From contig NZ_LDJM01000012.1 in assembly GCF_001431485.1 (NCBI RefSeq), positions 62,001 to 126,000 on the forward strand: 64,000 nt of DNA. The letters run 5' to 3'. Below the pieces are notes generated by a model. The model searched no databases, was not told the origin of the DNA, and was given only the letters and a program-made list of their open reading frames with translations. Below, piece by piece: positions 20,947 to 28,520 of this stretch; positions within the stretch are counted from its first letter, which is position 1, and each line of letters opens with the position of its first letter. Source of the stretch: Stenotrophomonas ginsengisoli (GTDB lineage: Bacteria > Pseudomonadota > Gammaproteobacteria > Xanthomonadales > Xanthomonadaceae). A program made the position numbers and the translations under genes.

Positions 20947-21291
20947 TCAGACGTCGATGTCATCCAGACGGAACACCACGTCCGACTCGCGCACGTTGAT
21001 GTTCATACGGGTGTAGGAATCACCATCGCTGTCGACAGCGCGCACGTCAAAACGCGGCGACTTGTAACCGGTCAGGGTGATGCGCTTGGTGCGGCCGTTT
21101 TCCAGCACTTCGCTCTCGCCCAGCAGGTCCTCTTCCCAATCCGAGGCCGATGCCGGGCTGACATACAGGTGCCAGATCGGGAACCCGGTGTTGTTGGTCA
21201 CATCCACATACATCTGCTGGGCCATGGCCATCGGGCTCATCACAGCCAGCATTGCCACCAGCGCCAAACGGCCCATCCACTTGCGTACCAT
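20947..21291 (-). CDS. Small exported protein with Asn-Asn-Thr-Gly and Asp-rich motifs (copy 1)
   Basis: A 114-residue protein with a cleavable signal peptide (Lys-Trp-Met-Gly-Arg then a hydrophobic core ending Met-Ala-Met-Ala-Gln, about residues 1-24). The mature part has Val-Thr-Asn-Asn-Thr-Gly-Phe, Asp-Trp-Glu-Glu-Asp-Leu-Leu-Gly, and Asp-Ser-Asp-Gly-Asp-Ser-Tyr-Thr-Arg. The last resembles a calcium-type acidic loop. It is a clear paralogue of the gene at 21585-21923. I know of similar small periplasmic proteins in proteobacteria but no assigned function. AAGGAG lies 6 bases before ATG 21291; ATG 21294 is the alternative. Confidence 0.82.
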   Translation of the reverse strand: MVRKWMGRLALVAMLAVMSPMAMAQQMYVDVTNNTGFPIWHLYVSPASASDWEEDLLGESEVLENGRTKRITLTGYKSPRFDVRAVDSDGDSYTRMNINVRESDVVFRLDDIDV

Positions 21292-21486
21292 CATTCTCTC
21301 CTTAACCATTTCGGCCAGACGTCCATGTGCAGCCGGCAGCTGCGTCATGGCGCCGGTGTTTTCATGCCTCCACCGAAGCTGCGACACAGGTCACAGGGCG
21401 GCAAAAGGGCCGGATTATTGTACAGCCGCCAGATTGTGAACACGATCACCCGTTGTGTCATCAAGCCAGCCGCCGGCTGATGCAAG

Positions 21487-21584: not shown

Positions 21585-21923
21585 TCAATGGGACAGGTCG
21601 CCCAGGGTCAGGGTGACATCCTCGGTGAGCACATTGACCCCCATGCGGTAGTACGTATCACCATCCTCGTCCACCGCCTTGATGTCATACACCGGCGAGC
21701 CCTTGCCGGAGAAGTTGACCTGGTGGGTCTGCCCATTGCGCAGGATGCGCGTACCCAGCACATCCTCTTCCCAGTCACCGGTGGAACTGCTGCTGACATT
21801 CAGGGTGATGATGTCGAACCCGGTGTTGTTGGTGACCCGCAGGTACCGCTGCTGGGCGTGGGCCGCAACGCTGACCAGCAACAGCAGTGCAGCCAGGACG
21901 ATGATCTGAGCAGACTTGAACAT
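21585..21923 (-). CDS. Small exported protein with Asn-Asn-Thr-Gly and Asp-rich motifs (copy 2)
   Basis: A 112-residue protein with a signal peptide ending Ala-Ala-His-Ala-Gln near residue 23. The mature region is colinear with the protein at 20947-21291: Val-Thr-Asn-Asn-Thr-Gly-Phe, Asp-Trp-Glu-Glu-Asp-Val-Leu-Gly, Asn-Gly-(Arg/Gln)-Thr, and Asp-Glu-Asp-Gly-Asp-Thr-Tyr-Tyr-Arg all align. By eye a little under half the mature residues are identical. Such proteins are probably periplasmic beta-sandwiches with a cation-binding loop, but this is inference. ATG 21923 follows an AGGGGG Shine-Dalgarno. A CCCCC-GTTT-GGGGG dyad lies about 85 bases upstream. Confidence 0.82.
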   Translation of the reverse strand: MFKSAQIIVLAALLLLVSVAAHAQQRYLRVTNNTGFDIITLNVSSSSTGDWEEDVLGTRILRNGQTHQVNFSGKGSPVYDIKAVDEDGDTYYRMGVNVLTEDVTLTLGDLSH

Positions 21924-22006
21924 GTAACCCCCTGTTGAAAGAACAAGCGGCGCATCCGGCGCCGCGCAGAGGCCACACACTAGGCAATGGCCCGCCTGCC
22001 CAGTAG

Positions 22007-22052: not shown

Positions 22053-22670
22053 TCACTGCCCGGCCCGTTGCTGCACCTGCCGGAACAGTTGCATCGCCTC
22101 GGCCGCACCGCCCCACCCGCGCAGCTGGACCGGATTGACGGTGCCGGCTGCCACCCCACACTCAGCAGTGCAGGTGGTGCTCTTGTAACCGGCGAAGAAG
22201 GCTTTGATGCGCAGTCGCAGCCCAGGTGGCAGGTCCGCCAGATCCTGCCACTGGGCGTAATCAGCATCCACGCCGGCCGCCGGCACCGCAATCAGCTTGT
22301 CGTCGGCCTGGCCGCCATCGCGCATACGCAGCAGTCCGATCGGGCGGACAGCAATGCGCACACCGGCCGGCAGCGGCTCACGGGTAACCAGCAGCGCATC
22401 CAGTGGATCACCATCGCCCGCCACAGTACCGGGCAGGCCGCCGTAGTTGGCCGGATAGCTTTCCGCACCGGGCAGGAAACGATCCACGAACAGCCGCCCC
22501 TGGGCATCGATCTCGTACTTGATGCGGCTTCCGGCCGGGATCTCCACCTGCATCCAGATCCCCGGATCTGCCTGTGCGGCATCTGTCTGTGCAGTTCCGG
22601 TGCCGGCCACGGCCGTGCCTGCCGACCCGGCCAGCAGAATTGCCGGCCACAAAACTCTCTGGCGTGTCAT
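22053..22670 (-). CDS. Exported family I inorganic pyrophosphatase
   Basis: The product should hydrolyse pyrophosphate to two phosphates, but in the periplasm. Residues 1-25 form a signal peptide (Arg-Gln-Arg, hydrophobic core, Ala-Val-Ala-Gly). Mature protein features are Glu-Ile-Pro-Ala-Gly-Ser-Arg-Ile-Lys-Tyr-Glu-Ile-Asp, Tyr-Pro-Ala-Asn-Tyr-Gly, and the family I signature Asp-Gly-Asp-Pro-Leu-Asp-Ala-Leu. A Lys-Ala-Phe-Phe-Ala-Gly-Tyr-Lys segment replaces the usual Phe-Glu-His-Tyr-Lys region, and two nearby cysteines (Cys-Thr-Ala-Glu-Cys) may form a disulfide. ATG 22670 overlaps the phosphatase stop as ATGA. It is the last gene of the phosphate-scavenging operon. Confidence 0.88.
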   Translation of the reverse strand: MTRQRVLWPAILLAGSAGTAVAGTGTAQTDAAQADPGIWMQVEIPAGSRIKYEIDAQGRLFVDRFLPGAESYPANYGGLPGTVAGDGDPLDALLVTREPLPAGVRIAVRPIGLLRMRDGGQADDKLIAVPAAGVDADYAQWQDLADLPPGLRLRIKAFFAGYKSTTCTAECGVAAGTVNPVQLRGWGGAAEAMQLFRQVQQRAGQ

Positions 22671-24049
22671 TCCCAGCACCGGTCCGTACGCCCGGTGGCC
22701 GTCGCTGCGCGGTGGTCACAGGTACGAGGGGCGATGCGCCCGTCCATCTGCTCGATCAGGCGCTTGCTGCCATCCGCATCACGCGCGATGCGCCATTGGT
22801 CATACAGCCGGCCGCTGGCCGTATAGGAGGCATAGTTCAAACCGTCATTGGCAATACGCAATACCTGGTAGTACTGGGTGTCCTCGCCCACCGGCGCCAT
22901 GCTTGCCCTGGCCTGTTCGGACAGGCGGTATTGCTTGGGCCCGGCCACCGAAGAGACCAGTACCGTGCTGCCGGCCCCGTCAAGCAGCCGCCGCCCGTAA
23001 GCGTGATCATGCCCCTGCAGGACCAGGTCCACGCGGTGCCGGCGCAGCACCGGAGCCAGATGGGTGACCAGCGCGCGGTTGTCGCGGCCGGTACGCAGGG
23101 CGTACAGCGGCTGGTGCACGACCACGATGGTCCATGGCCGCGTATTGGCGGCCAGCACACCGTCCAACCAACGCGCCTGCTCGGCGCCACTGTCATGTTC
23201 CAGCGCCGAGGTGCCATCGAGCACGGCAATCCGCACGCCTTGGTGGTCAAACCAGTAACTGGTATGCGGCACCACCGCCGCACCGTTGTCCGGCAAGGCA
23301 AAGGACCGTGGCCAGTGGACGCCCAGCACCTTGATCTGCTGCGGGGTGTCCTCGTGCAGCTCGGCATATTCGTGGTTGCCCACAGCCGGCGCTGTGGCCA
23401 CCTCTTCGAGCAAGGGCGCCGCGGCGGCGTGCCACTCGCCCCATTCGATGTCGTCCTGGCCATCGCCGCCACTGACCAGATCGCCGGCAAACAGGGCCAG
23501 GCGTGCCTGCGGTGCCTGGCGCATGGCCTGACGGATCACCCGGGTGACATGGGAGACGTTCTTGTTCTGGGTGTCGCCGAAGTACAGCAGGGTCAGCGGT
23601 GCATCCACGCCGGCGGCGGTGACCACCCGGTTCCAGCTGCTCCAGCGTCCATTGCCCTGCACCCGGTACAGCCAGGCCGTATCGGCCGCCAGGCCATCCA
23701 CCACTACCTGATGGTAGTGGGCCACACCGGTCTCGGCAGTCAAGGCTGTGGTGGTGGCGGTGAGGCGGCGTGTTGCGGCAAAGGCTGGTGAATCGTCCTG
23801 CGCGGCCAGCTCCAGCACCGGCGCCTGCACATTGGCATCGGTGCGCCAGGACACGGCAAAGCCGTTGGATGCATCGGCCAGCGGACTGACCACGAGGCGA
23901 TCCGGCGCCGGCCCCGGCTGGTAGGCCAGTTGCCCCATCGGCACCTGGGTATTGGCTTCGGGCGGCTGCGCAGCACCGCCGGGCGTGGCAAGTGCCATGC
24001 CCGGCACCAGCACGGCGGCCAGCAGCCGATGACGCCATTGCGCACTCAC
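22667..24049 (-). CDS. Exported metallophosphoesterase, purple-acid-phosphatase-like
   Basis: A 460-residue protein with an N-terminal signal peptide (about 1-28) and a fibronectin-like domain (about 50-145). A calcineurin-like domain follows, carrying all five metal-binding blocks: Gly-Asp-Thr-Gln, Gly-Asp-Leu-Val, Gly-Asn-His-Glu-Tyr, Val-Val-His-Gln-Pro-Leu-Tyr and Gly-His-Asp-His-Ala-Tyr. This layout is that of purple acid phosphatases. It should release phosphate from monoesters in the envelope or outside. GTG 24049 is chosen because it overlaps the upstream stop as GTGA; GTG 24058 is possible. It is translationally coupled on both sides. Confidence 0.87.
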   Translation of the reverse strand: MSAQWRHRLLAAVLVPGMALATPGGAAQPPEANTQVPMGQLAYQPGPAPDRLVVSPLADASNGFAVSWRTDANVQAPVLELAAQDDSPAFAATRRLTATTTALTAETGVAHYHQVVVDGLAADTAWLYRVQGNGRWSSWNRVVTAAGVDAPLTLLYFGDTQNKNVSHVTRVIRQAMRQAPQARLALFAGDLVSGGDGQDDIEWGEWHAAAAPLLEEVATAPAVGNHEYAELHEDTPQQIKVLGVHWPRSFALPDNGAAVVPHTSYWFDHQGVRIAVLDGTSALEHDSGAEQARWLDGVLAANTRPWTIVVVHQPLYALRTGRDNRALVTHLAPVLRRHRVDLVLQGHDHAYGRRLLDGAGSTVLVSSVAGPKQYRLSEQARASMAPVGEDTQYYQVLRIANDGLNYASYTASGRLYDQWRIARDADGSKRLIEQMDGRIAPRTCDHRAATATGRTDRCWE

Positions 24050-25164
24050 AGCCCGCACTCCGGCAGCGACAGCGCCCTGGCGATGTCATTCCAGTCGAAG
24101 GCCACCACGCCCTGGTCATCATGCACGGCATACAGCGCGCCATTGGGGAAACGCGCACTGGCCTGCTGGCTGTTCCAGATGCCATCGGTGTTGGCCACCA
24201 CCTTGCCCTCGAAGGCGCCGACATGGGCCAGGGTGTGGCGGTCAAACAGATGGAAGGTGCTGCGCGCCTTGCCCTGCTCGGTGGTGATCCACCAGCCGGC
24301 CTCGCCACAGGTGCGCAGCATGATGCCTTCGGCCTGGGCGGCCAGCTTCTCGCCACCAAAGACCTGGCCGGTGAACTTCCCGTCCAGGTTGTAGACCTTG
24401 AACTCATTGGCCCAGGTTTCATCCTCTTCGGCAATCAGCAGACGGTCATTGGCCGGATCCCCCCACAGCGATTCCACCACCCGCAGGGCACCCCGTTCGC
24501 TGGTGTCGCCGATGTTGGCGGCAAGCTGTGCCCGGGCCTTGCCATCGATGATGCTCAGCGCATAACGGCGCACGCGCCGGTCCAGTTCGGTCAGGGGCGG
24601 CAGGATGTCATTGCCCTGCGCATCCTCGCCGTTGTCCCAGGAGTCGGTGACATACAGATCGTATGTGTCCTGCCGGGTCTTGTTGACCCACAGGCCATAC
24701 GGCTTGCGCAGTTCCTGCTGGCCGAAATGGCCGACCGGAGTGAAATCGGGCAGGGTCAGCACCTGCACCCGGCGGTTGTCACGCTCCACCACCAGCAGCA
24801 GGTCATCGACCACGGCAATGCCGTTGGGGCGATCGAACTGACCGTCACCGGTGCCGGCACTGCCGACATCGCGCAGATGGACACCGCTCTGGCCGTCGTA
24901 AACGACCAGCTTGTCGCTGGCCTTGGCCGTGGCAATCAACCAGACCTTGCCATCGGCGGCAACCCAGGACGCCGGGGAATCGATGTTGTCCTCCGGGGTC
25001 ATCGGGGTCAGGAAGGCCTCGCCGATGCGGGCCACCGGCGCGGCCGTGACCTCATGGCTGCCAGCTGCCGGCGGTGTGGCGGTGGTATCGGCAACCGGTG
25101 CGCTGCAGCCGGCCAGCAGCGCGATGCCGGCCAGGCCCAGGAACGGGCGGATCGGCGCGCACAT
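24046..25164 (-). CDS. Phytase-like beta-propeller lipoprotein
   Basis: A 372-residue lipoprotein (signal ending Leu-Leu-Ala-Gly-Cys, Cys near 20) with repeated beta-propeller blades. Blade motifs include Asp-Ser-Pro-Ala-Ser-Trp-Val, Arg-Pro-Asn-Gly-Ile-Ala-Val, Val-Val-Glu-Arg-Asp-Asn-Arg-Arg-Val-Gln-Val and Ala-Glu-Gly-Ile-Met. These correspond to conserved blocks of beta-propeller (3-)phytases, which remove phosphate from inositol hexakisphosphate with calcium. ATG 25164 overlaps the receptor stop by one base (TGATG). Flanking receptor, phosphatase and pyrophosphatase support a role in organic phosphate use. Calcium-ligand conservation was not fully verified. Confidence 0.82.
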   Translation of the reverse strand: MCAPIRPFLGLAGIALLAGCSAPVADTTATPPAAGSHEVTAAPVARIGEAFLTPMTPEDNIDSPASWVAADGKVWLIATAKASDKLVVYDGQSGVHLRDVGSAGTGDGQFDRPNGIAVVDDLLLVVERDNRRVQVLTLPDFTPVGHFGQQELRKPYGLWVNKTRQDTYDLYVTDSWDNGEDAQGNDILPPLTELDRRVRRYALSIIDGKARAQLAANIGDTSERGALRVVESLWGDPANDRLLIAEEDETWANEFKVYNLDGKFTGQVFGGEKLAAQAEGIMLRTCGEAGWWITTEQGKARSTFHLFDRHTLAHVGAFEGKVVANTDGIWNSQQASARFPNGALYAVHDDQGVVAFDWNDIARALSLPECGL

Positions 25165-27695
25165 CACAGGGCCACCTTCACGCCGACGGCGAAGCTGCGA
25201 CCGTACTCCTCCTGCTGCAGCTTGCGGCTGCGGTTGCCCTGGTACAGCTGCAGTGGCTCGTCGAGCAGGTTGGAGGCCTCCAGGTACAGGCTGACCGCAC
25301 TGCTGAGCTTGAAGTCCAGGCTGAAATCCAGCTGGGTATGCGGGGCTACGTAGACATCGAAGTCGCGGCTGTCGCCGATGCTGTCCAGATATGCGGAGCG
25401 GTACACGGCGGCCAGACGGGTGCTGACCGGGCCGTATTCGTACCCGATGTGGCCGCTGTACACCTGCCGGGACGCGCGCGGCAGCATGAAGCCCTCGCCC
25501 TGCCGGCCGGCAATGCCGGCATCAAATTCGGTATCCAGCCAGGTGGCACTGGCACCGATCAGCAAGCCCGACCAGGCATTCGGCAGCATGGCCAGCTGCT
25601 GCTGCCAGTTCACCTCCGCCCCGCGCACGGTTGCCTTGTCACCGTTGATCGCCGTGGTCACCTCAAAGCCCGGAAAACCGGCATGGCTGTCGGTCACGGT
25701 CTCCACGATGTAGCCATCGATGACCTTGTGGAACACCCCCACCGAGACCAGTCCGGTGTCGCCCAGGTAACGTTCTAGGCTCAGGTCCAGATTGGTGGAT
25801 TCATACGGGTCCAGCTGCGGGTTGCCCACGCGCACCTCGCCCTCGTCGCGGTTCATGCCCAGGCGCGGGGAGATGTCGGCAAAGGACGGCCGGGCCAGTG
25901 TCTGGTTGGCCGAGCCACGCAGCACCCAGCCGTTGTCGGTGTCGTAACGGGCATGCAGGCCCGGCAGCACGTTGGTGTAACGGCTGGCCACGCGCCGCCC
26001 GCTGACCTGGGCCACACCATCCTGGTCGATGTCCACCTGGTAGCCATCGGCAGCGAACTTTGTATTCTCCACCCGCACGCCGGCAATCAGGCGCAGCTTG
26101 TCGATGTCCCAGGTGCCCATGGCATAGGCAGCGAAGATGTCCTCGTTGGCACGGTAATCCTCCTCCAGCATCAACGCGGTGTTCCCGACCACATCCTGCG
26201 GGCGGGCGCTGTAATCGCCCTTGTTGGCGGCCCACCAGCGGTTCATGCGCGCCGAATCCAGCCATTGGCCGAGGTCGGCATGCCGGTGCTCCAGCGCCTT
26301 GCCGGCCCAGCCGGCCAGGTCCACGTCCGGGCCGCGGCGCAACTCCGACTCGTTGACATCGGCGCTGCGCTCGCGACAGCGCCCGAGCAGGCCGAACTTG
26401 TAGCTGGCATTGTCCGCATCAAAGCGCAGGTTCACCTGGGCTGAGTGCTCCTTGTCATCCACCACGGTGGGAGCCACCACCATGCGGTCGAAGGCGTAAT
26501 TGGCCAGGTCCTTCCAGCCATCGTCGCTGATCCGGTAGGTCGGCAGCGCAGTGCGCTGGTCGATCAGCGCGGTCAGGTCATCGGCATCGTAGTCAAAGCG
26601 CGCCTCGATCTCGTCCAGCACACGCTCGCGGGTCTTGGTCCAGCCCAGCCGGTAGTCCACCACGGCCGCGCTCAGGCTGTGTTCGCCACCGAAGCTGGCG
26701 GCGATGGTGTCCTCTTGCTTGGTGCGGTAGCGCAGGCGCTTGGCAATGGCGTCGGCAGGCAGTCCGTCCACCTGGTAGCGGCCATCGCGCAGGGCGGTGA
26801 TGTCGCCATCGCCGAAGCCGAAGATGGTGCGCTGGCGGGTCTCGGCATCATTGAAGCGGCTGTACAGGGTGCGCAGGAAGTAGCGGTTGTCCGCATCCGG
26901 GCGCCAGTCCAGGTTGAGGTTGGCCCCGCTGCGCTCGCGCTCGATGCTGTATTTGCGGTGCTGCACGTCGATGGCCGCAAGATCGGCGTTGCTGCCGCCG
27001 TCAAAGGTGTCGTATTCGACCTCGGTGTTGTCCGATTCAAACTCGCGCTGCTGGTGGTTGATGCCCACCGCCACACCGAAGGTGTCATTGAACACCTCGC
27101 TGTAGTTGAAGGCGGCCTTCGGGCTGGTCTTGCCCGACAGCGCCTGGTGGCTGGCTTCCAGCTTGCCGCGCAGGCTGCGCCCATCACGGTCGAAGGCCGA
27201 GGCCGATTCCACGATCACGCTGCCGCCGATGGCGTCGCCGGGCATGTCCGGCGTGGCCGACTTGACCACGCGCAGGCGTTCGGTGGAATCGGAAGGAATC
27301 ACATCCAGTGGCGCGGCGCGGCTGTCCGCTTCGGGCGTGCCGATGGCGATGCCGTCGACCGAGACAGTGTTCAATGCCGCATCCAGGCCACGCACCACGA
27401 CATAACGCCCTTCGCCCTGGTCACGGGTGACACTGACGCCGGGCAGGCGCTGCAGCGACTCGGCCACGTTCATGTCCGGGTAGTTGCCGATGGCATCGGC
27501 CGAGACCACGTCCTGGATGGCATCACTGCTGCGCTTGAGGTCCACCGCACGGACCTGTGCCTCGCGTTGGGCACGCACTTCGACCCGATCCAGGGCCACG
27601 GCCGCCTCCAGCGCCCCGCCGCTGGCCAGCACCGGTCCACTGGCCCAGCCCAGCAACGCCATCGACACCGACTTGCACAACACCTGCTTCCGCAC
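25164..27695 (-). CDS. TonB-dependent outer-membrane receptor of the phytase operon
   Basis: An 843-residue receptor of the Xanthomonas/Caulobacter type. A signal peptide (1-25) is followed by a TonB-box-like region and a plug domain: Ala-Glu-Ser-Leu-Gln-Arg-Leu-Pro-Gly-Val-Ser-Val near 78-89, Val-Arg-Gly-Leu, Val-Asp-Gly-Ile, and Gly-Asp-Ala-Ile-Gly-Gly near 152. A 22-strand barrel ends in Phe-Ala-Val-Gly-Val-Lys-Val-Ala-Leu. It should import a substrate across the outer membrane using TonB energy; the genes behind it point to inositol phosphates. No ATG is suitable; GTG 27695 has AGGGGA upstream. The gene heads the operon under Pho-box-like repeats. Confidence 0.92.
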   Translation of the reverse strand: MRKQVLCKSVSMALLGWASGPVLASGGALEAAVALDRVEVRAQREAQVRAVDLKRSSDAIQDVVSADAIGNYPDMNVAESLQRLPGVSVTRDQGEGRYVVVRGLDAALNTVSVDGIAIGTPEADSRAAPLDVIPSDSTERLRVVKSATPDMPGDAIGGSVIVESASAFDRDGRSLRGKLEASHQALSGKTSPKAAFNYSEVFNDTFGVAVGINHQQREFESDNTEVEYDTFDGGSNADLAAIDVQHRKYSIERERSGANLNLDWRPDADNRYFLRTLYSRFNDAETRQRTIFGFGDGDITALRDGRYQVDGLPADAIAKRLRYRTKQEDTIAASFGGEHSLSAAVVDYRLGWTKTRERVLDEIEARFDYDADDLTALIDQRTALPTYRISDDGWKDLANYAFDRMVVAPTVVDDKEHSAQVNLRFDADNASYKFGLLGRCRERSADVNESELRRGPDVDLAGWAGKALEHRHADLGQWLDSARMNRWWAANKGDYSARPQDVVGNTALMLEEDYRANEDIFAAYAMGTWDIDKLRLIAGVRVENTKFAADGYQVDIDQDGVAQVSGRRVASRYTNVLPGLHARYDTDNGWVLRGSANQTLARPSFADISPRLGMNRDEGEVRVGNPQLDPYESTNLDLSLERYLGDTGLVSVGVFHKVIDGYIVETVTDSHAGFPGFEVTTAINGDKATVRGAEVNWQQQLAMLPNAWSGLLIGASATWLDTEFDAGIAGRQGEGFMLPRASRQVYSGHIGYEYGPVSTRLAAVYRSAYLDSIGDSRDFDVYVAPHTQLDFSLDFKLSSAVSLYLEASNLLDEPLQLYQGNRSRKLQQEEYGRSFAVGVKVAL

Positions 27696-27724: not shown

Positions 27725-27780
27725 ACGATATTTCTGTGCCTTTTCAGCCCGATGACAGCCACATAGCGTGCAGATGACAG
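27725..27780 (-). promoter_or_regulatory. Pho-box-like direct repeats and promoter of the phytase operon
   Basis: Minus-strand 7-mers spaced 11 bases apart are CTGTCAT (27780), ACGCTAT (27769), CTGTCAT (27758) and CTGAAAA (27747). The first and third are exact PhoB half-sites, the fourth matches four of seven, and the second is weak. A TATCGT hexamer (27730-27725) begins 10 bases after the last repeat, the same spacing as in the E. coli phoA promoter. It lies 30 bases before the receptor start. Confidence 0.65.
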
Positions 27781-27854
27781 CTCGGGCGGTGCACGCAGCA
27801 CCCCGTCATTGCCACTGCACGATCACCGGCAAGACGGGCAAGACCGTGGCGGCC

Positions 27855-27860
27855 TACAAT
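27855..27860 (+). promoter_or_regulatory. Candidate -10 element of upp
   Basis: TACAAT lies 28 bases before the upp ATG. No good -35 is visible 16-18 bases upstream. Confidence 0.3.
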
Positions 27861-27887
27861 CGTCCAACTCAAACGGACCCCGCCCCC

Positions 27888-28520
27888 ATGAAGATCGTTG
27901 AAGCCCGCCACCCGCTGGTACGCCACAAAATCGGCCTGCTGCGCAACCCGGAGCTGAGCACGCGCGAGTTCCGCGAGCTGACCAATGAGATCGGCACCCT
28001 GCTGGCCTACGAGGCCACCGCCGACCTGCCCACCGAAACGGTCACCGTGCCCGGCTGGGCCGGCCCCGTCGCGGTGGAACGCCTGGCCGGGGCCAAGATC
28101 ACCCTGGTGCCGATCCTGCGCGCCGGCCTGGGCATGCTGACCGGCGTGCTGGACCTGCTGCCCTCGGCCCGGGTCAGCGTGGTCGGCCTGCAGCGCGATG
28201 AGGAAACCCTGCAGCCGGTGCCCTACTTCGAGCGCCTGACCGGCCGCCTGGAAGAACGTGACACCCTGATCCTGGACCCGATGCTGGCCACCGGCGGCAC
28301 CCTGATCGCCACCATCGACATGCTCAAGCGTGCCGGGGCCAAGCGCATCAAGGGCATCTTCCTGGTCGCCGCACCGGAAGGCCTGAAGGCCCTGGAGGCC
28401 GTGCACCCGGATGTGGAGATCTTCACCGCCGCCATCGACGAGCGCCTGAACGAGAAGGGCTACATCCTGCCCGGCCTGGGCGATGCCGGCGACCGCATCT
28501 TCGGCACCCGCGCCGGCTGA
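27888..28520 (+). CDS. upp: Uracil phosphoribosyltransferase
   Basis: Upp makes UMP from uracil and PRPP in pyrimidine salvage. The 210-residue protein has the UPRT uracil-binding segment and the PRPP loop [11 protein letters not shown] (about 126-136). Pro-Ile-Leu-Arg-Ala-Gly-Leu-Gly-Met lies near 77. The C-terminal [13 protein letters not shown] uracil motif is intact. Length matches E. coli Upp (208). It is divergent from the phytase operon and ends at a strong bidirectional terminator. Confidence 0.97.

Follow-up and report, generated by a model that had tools for sequence, protein, structure and literature searches.

A probable phosphate-starvation operon of Stenotrophomonas ginsengisoli with a TonB-dependent receptor, a phytase-like lipoprotein, a phosphoesterase and a predicted exported family I pyrophosphatase

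The window, i.e., the whole stretch of 64,000 nucleotides of Stenotrophomonas ginsengisoli DNA analyzed here, contains four leftward open reading frames that span positions 22053..27695 (Table 1). Neighboring frames are joined by stop/start overlaps: TGATG between the receptor and phytase-like genes, GTGA between the phytase-like and metallophosphatase genes, and ATGA between the metallophosphatase and pyrophosphatase genes. An earlier note on this DNA had described this arrangement, and the frames and overlaps were located exactly where it had placed them. Its claim that all four products carry export signals agrees with the N-termini, which were read by eye and, for the pyrophosphatase, additionally evaluated by a simple hydropathy test; all four are thus predicted to be exported. 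Such overlaps appear to be more than chance: in relatives, a start codon that shares 1 or 4 nt with the stop of the gene before it was available in 16 of 21 receptor/phytase pairs, 22 of 28 phytase/phosphatase pairs and 8 of 21 phosphatase/pyrophosphatase pairs; these counts are upper estimates because the nearest possible start was used and because they cover only same-strand pairs that have a start and lie at most 600 nt apart. A consensus scan upstream of the operon yielded no sigma-70-type promoter, and terminator-like sites at the operon, one of them ~90 nt past its end, were no more frequent than in shuffled sequences. Directly downstream of the operon lie the genes of two similar small exported proteins (VTNNTGF...DWEED...DGD), for which no Pfam match was found.

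Table 1. Features of the operon and its surroundings in the window
Feature	Coordinates	Strand	Start; length	Assignment
TonB-dependent receptor	25164..27695	-	GTG 27695; 843 aa	TonB receptor barrel (PF00593), plug (PF07715), TIGR01782
Phytase-like lipoprotein	24046..25164	-	ATG 25164; 372 aa	PF02333 (25 bits), six-bladed-propeller model
Purple-acid-phosphatase-like metallophosphoesterase	22667..24049	-	GTG 24049; 460 aa	Metallophos (PF00149), Pur_ac_phosph_N (PF16656)
Family I inorganic pyrophosphatase, predicted exported	22053..22670	-	ATG 22670; 205 aa	PF00719, exported clade
Pho-box-like tandem repeat	27730..27780	-		11-nt period
Exact CTGTCAT pair within the repeat	27752-27780			two copies, 22 nt apart
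Small exported protein	20947-21387	-
Small exported protein	21585-21980	-
Uracil phosphoribosyltransferase, as listed	27768-28520	+		conserved start ATG at 27888

The receptor scores 669.8 bits against TIGR01782 (cut-off 310). By sequence, its nearest solved chain is the colicin I receptor Cir, with an alignment confined to the plug. Among 40 chosen larger regions, the receptor was co-directional and 56–85% identical in 21, divergently transcribed and only 23–37% identical in 16 (L172, L188, L189, L192-L196, L200-L204, L206, L207, L180), and undetected in 3. In these 16 regions, the second, divergent receptor type accompanies the same enzymes in place of the co-directional receptor.

The phytase assignment of the second product combines a weak Pfam score, a predicted fold and sequence motifs, and is accordingly worded here as phytase-like. 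The PF02333 match lies just above the hmmscan cut-off of 21 bits and is accompanied by one NHL repeat, while a six-frame search of the S. ginsengisoli genome with PF02333 gave no match. Only 10 of 39 homologues match PF02333 at E 0.01 or better, and a PDB search with the sequence profile of the family retrieved NHL proteins and no phytase. The predicted model (pLDDT 89.7) adopts a six-bladed-propeller fold whose top structural match is the Bacillus phytase 1poo, with an NHL domain ranked almost level by Foldseek. The Bacillus beta-propeller phytases (1poo, 1qlg, 3amr) share ~20% identity with the protein and are missed by the sequence profile. Residues E247, E248, D249, E280, Q298, and D328 are invariant in the 39 homologues, as are the EEDE, EG, QG, and TDG motifs, which align with canonical phytase and whose residues we take to be calcium- and phosphate-binding. 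For the Lys-Glu pair of the central region, no counterpart could be assigned in the protein. The N-terminus carries a lipobox, LLAGC, with a cysteine that is nearly invariant among the 39 aligned homologues.

The metal-ligand motifs GD, GNHE, H, and GHDH are present in the phosphoesterase, and its PDB matches are plant purple acid phosphatases. Its GDLVSGG segment aligns with the plant GDLSYAD, and the Fe(III)-binding tyrosine is therefore absent; this residue gives purple acid phosphatases their color.

Family I pyrophosphatases are normally cytosolic enzymes, and the earlier note had singled out an exported one as unusual. The protein matches PF00719 with 135.6 bits. Fourteen active-site positions were assigned according to the E. 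coli enzyme numbering; 13 of them are invariant in 30 chosen sequences and the 14th is nearly so. In the same alignment, conservation is lacking at the position equivalent to E. coli Glu98. A quick tree of 61 rows, rooted at midpoint, separated 42 leader-bearing from 19 cytosolic pyrophosphatases (SH-aLRT 100), with the window's row on a long branch (0.83). With groups taken from this tree, the hydropathy test detected a hydrophobic leader at 41/41 exported-clade loci versus 0/19 cytosolic ones. A further pyrophosphatase, this one leaderless, is encoded on a different contig of the S. ginsengisoli genome. PF00719 and the active-site residues are common to the window's enzyme and the cytosolic E. 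coli type, whereas the export leader, the separate clade and the location within phosphate-scavenging loci set the former apart. These features and the conserved clustering described below support the view of the earlier note. An additional loop of the window's pyrophosphatase contains two cysteines (CTAEC) and recurs in the closest homologue (P0122), but is absent from the other aligned relatives; a disulphide in this loop would fit an exported protein.

Within the genus (61 genomes, S. ginsengisoli included), 59 genomes have the phytase-like gene, 57 the phosphatase and 52 the exported-type pyrophosphatase, leaving 9 without the latter. The exported type was defined by E 1.8e-38 or better, the next rows being cytosolic-type at 5.6e-30. 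Across 247 genomes of the family, the phytase-like gene occurs in at least 192, the phosphatase in 65 and the exported pyrophosphatase (E 1e-33 or better) in 52. In 50 of these 52 genomes the pyrophosphatase gene stands beside the phytase-like and/or the phosphatase gene. Both partners lie on the same strand within 5 kb in 39 genomes, the phytase-like gene only in 6, the phosphatase only in 5 and neither in 2; absence of the phytase-like gene is of lower confidence in these counts because its 65 rows were chosen among the matches listed, from genomes holding another cluster gene. Similarly, 64 of the 65 phosphatase genes adjoin at least one of the other two. The earlier note had called for a comparison of gene order across Stenotrophomonas and Xanthomonas, and in the 247 genomes the cluster was kept with an occasionally different order: 37 PHY-PAP-PPA, 1 PHY-PPA-PAP, 1 PAP-PHY-PPA, 6 PHY-PPA, and 5 PAP-PPA. 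Two genomes thus retained the cluster with a changed gene order. The upp gene adjoins the cluster in 36 of the 40 chosen larger regions. A passenger role of the pyrophosphatase was considered and ruled out because 50/52 adjoin partner genes in several orders and the clade bears export leaders.

Loci outside the family were taken from a genome scan, which gave at least 80 loci among the matches listed. A Sphingorhabdus MAG (L252) holds a receptor end, the pyrophosphatase, the phosphatase and a canonical phytase (PF02333, 199 bits; PDB match 3-phytase). Of 298 genomes from the family of Sphingorhabdus that were searched for relatives of this pyrophosphatase, 136 exceeded the threshold, in most cases probably with a cytosolic enzyme; four that reached E 1e-50 or better, among them the L252 MAG, were examined further. 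Receptor, pyrophosphatase, phosphatase and phytase occur together in L341, while L340 has three of the four functions (receptor, pyrophosphatase and phytase) and no phytase cluster was found around the pyrophosphatase of L342. L252 and L341 therefore hold all four functions, in an order unlike that of the window and with a canonical phytase. Chance clustering was rejected because of the 50/52 co-location count, in several orders, and these alphaproteobacterial clusters with other gene orders.

In Pseudomonas-type loci, a gene for an OprP/OprO-type (phosphate-selective) porin was located within ~6 kb of the exported pyrophosphatase in 11 of 12 cases among the matches listed (L259, L260, L261, L264, L266, L268, L271, L272, L274, L280, L281); the porin identity was confirmed by Pfam PF07396 in two of the loci. 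An exported ParBc_2 protein is often encoded between pyrophosphatase and porin. Additionally, in an alphaproteobacterial MAG (L301), the exported pyrophosphatase neighbors a remote match to an OprP-like porin (28% identity).

Upstream of the receptor gene, a repeat with an 11-nt period, CTGTCAT-N4-ACGCTAT-N4-CTGTCAT-N4-CTGAAAA-N4-CAGAAAT, extends down to position 27730. Allowing up to 2 mismatches, 0.25 sites would be expected for its CTGTCAT pair; one was found with none. For comparison, a Pho-box-like motif was derived from the pstS promoters of seven genomes, where it reaches 12/12 in 7 of 13 pstS loci. The window's repeat scores 10/12 against this motif, a value attained by 2% of shuffles. 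Scores of at least 10/12 occurred in 16 of 21 upstream regions (the window and 20 relatives with a co-directional receptor, 15 of which have the motif), with a sum score of 213 versus a shuffled mean of 159.0 (sd 3.45, maximum 170, 200 shuffles); the motif was picked by eye after inspection of the pstS promoters, and the 21 regions are mutually related. At the divergent-receptor loci, 14 of 18 regions lacked a site of at least 10 on either strand and 16 of 18 lacked one on the forward strand. The scoring excluded L203 (divergent-receptor type) and L208 (co-directional type). Upstream regions of the Pseudomonas pyrophosphatases showed no Pho-box-like signal above chance (motif sum 110 versus 108.1, sd 2.67), and of the two alphaproteobacterial regions scored, L341 lay above shuffles and L340 did not. 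The listed start of the uracil phosphoribosyltransferase gene falls inside the repeat; the conserved start of that gene lies further into it and leaves room for a divergent promoter region. Judged from these sequences, the operon is probably under Pho control.

Pairs of a receptor and a phytase have precedents in print, as the earlier note had mentioned (PMC8115612, PMC3400609), and so has their induction at low phosphate (PMC8115612, in the passages available). In Flavobacterium johnsoniae, the receptor and the PF02333 phytase encoded by Fjoh_1368/Fjoh_1367 are co-located and both induced by phosphate depletion (PMC8115612). This pair resembles the window's operon in its receptor and phytase neighborhood, but it belongs to another phylum, has a canonical phytase, and comes without mention of a pyrophosphatase in the main text as far as available (PMC8115612). 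A receptor gene beside a phytase gene was also noted for Citromicrobium, with phytate proposed as the substrate in a purely genomic remark; unlike the operon described here, that passage names neither a phosphoesterase nor a pyrophosphatase (PMC3400609). The secreted putative phytase PhyA of Xanthomonas oryzae (Chatterjee 2003) is reported, in the excerpts at hand, to allow growth when phytate is the only source of phosphate (PMC9403785, PMC5735085). It comes from the same bacterial family as the window's gene. The PhoB regulon of Caulobacter includes receptors, a phytase and a nucleotide pyrophosphatase (PMC11208175, in the part available). Among 213 Stenotrophomonas genomes, phyA was listed in 212 and ppa in 213, with an exported copy unmentioned in the portion of the article consulted (PMC11138164). 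No paper on a periplasmic or exported bacterial inorganic pyrophosphatase was found in searches of open-access papers.

Gene content, clustering, export signals, conserved active-site positions and the upstream repeat are observed features of the locus. Our preferred explanation, with a probability of roughly 0.65, is a phosphate-starvation (Pho-type) operon for the use of organic phosphate, whose products would convert phytate-like esters and pyrophosphate to phosphate outside the cytoplasm. The organic-phosphate role proposed by the earlier note gains support from the clustering, the canonical-phytase clusters in alphaproteobacteria, the Pho-box-like repeat and the exported pyrophosphatase clade. 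For regulation, transport, substrates and division of labor, we infer the following. When phosphate is scarce, binding of a PhoB-like activator to the repeat would turn on the whole operon. Phytate or a similar multi-phosphate ester would cross the outer membrane through the receptor, probably as a metal complex. The propeller protein, as an outer-membrane lipoprotein and divergent calcium-type beta-propeller phytase, would strip phosphates, and the remaining lower esters would be left to the phosphoesterase. Pyrophosphate, whether imported or formed outside the cytoplasm, would be cleaved by the exported pyrophosphatase into two phosphates, and the Pst system would take up the phosphate released. 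Import of pyrophosphate as such fits the porin neighbors in Pseudomonas; its formation on site is possible, and inositol pyrophosphates as substrate are a guess.

A Pho-type operon of the same kind could instead act on esters other than phytate, such as nucleotides or sugar phosphates; the pyrophosphatase would then remove pyrophosphate that is set free as nucleoside triphosphates are cut outside the cytoplasm. The propeller protein is only a distant phytase relative, the phosphoesterase family is broad, and phosphatase, pyrophosphatase and receptor occur without a phytase-like gene at some loci (5/52 genomes; L201, L202). We nevertheless consider a substrate other than phytate rather unlikely: canonical phytase takes the propeller's place in the alphaproteobacterial clusters, the 39 homologues all keep the phytase motifs unchanged, and the Pfam search detected no nucleotide pyrophosphatase family in the cluster.

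Uptake of metal, in which the receptor would import phytate or pyrophosphate complexes of iron or some other metal and the enzymes would break down the chelator to release it, appears very improbable given the phosphate type of the upstream repeat, the three phosphatase genes in the operon and the phosphate-selective porins near exported pyrophosphatases elsewhere, even though iron chelates are the best-known ligands of the receptor superfamily and the plug aligns with Cir. Likewise, the propeller protein is hardly to be expected to be a non-catalytic binding lipoprotein that acts as the receptor's surface partner and leaves catalysis to the phosphoesterase and the pyrophosphatase. Its weak phytase score and strong NHL resemblance would suit such a role, but the six invariant acidic and glutamine residues named above line up with canonical phytase, and a phytase is the best structural match.

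Receptor and phytase together are already known; what is new is the constant association with a clade of exported pyrophosphatases, observed in three lineages whose importers differ. A wider proposal, which we put forward tentatively and at rather less than even odds, is that the exported pyrophosphatases form one old family I subfamily and define a so far unrecognized route by which Proteobacteria acquire phosphate from pyrophosphate in the periplasm. The pyrophosphate, whether free, metal-bound or freed from larger molecules, would enter via the importer of the respective lineage (TonB-dependent receptor or OprP/OprO-type porin) and be split outside the cytoplasm, and the use of phytate and pyrophosphate would have become one unit in Stenotrophomonas and relatives.

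Phytate is a large soil phosphorus store, and its uptake across the outer membrane of Gram-negative bacteria has been poorly tested. Receptor, phytase, phosphatase and pyrophosphatase form a compact set whose order varies but which stays together in several lineages; it offers a defined system for the gene-by-gene study of import and complete dephosphorylation. Annotation that counts a single 'ppa' would hide the exported pyrophosphatase. If the assignment is true, a family I enzyme usually seen as a cytosolic housekeeper would, in its exported form, take part in nutrient acquisition.
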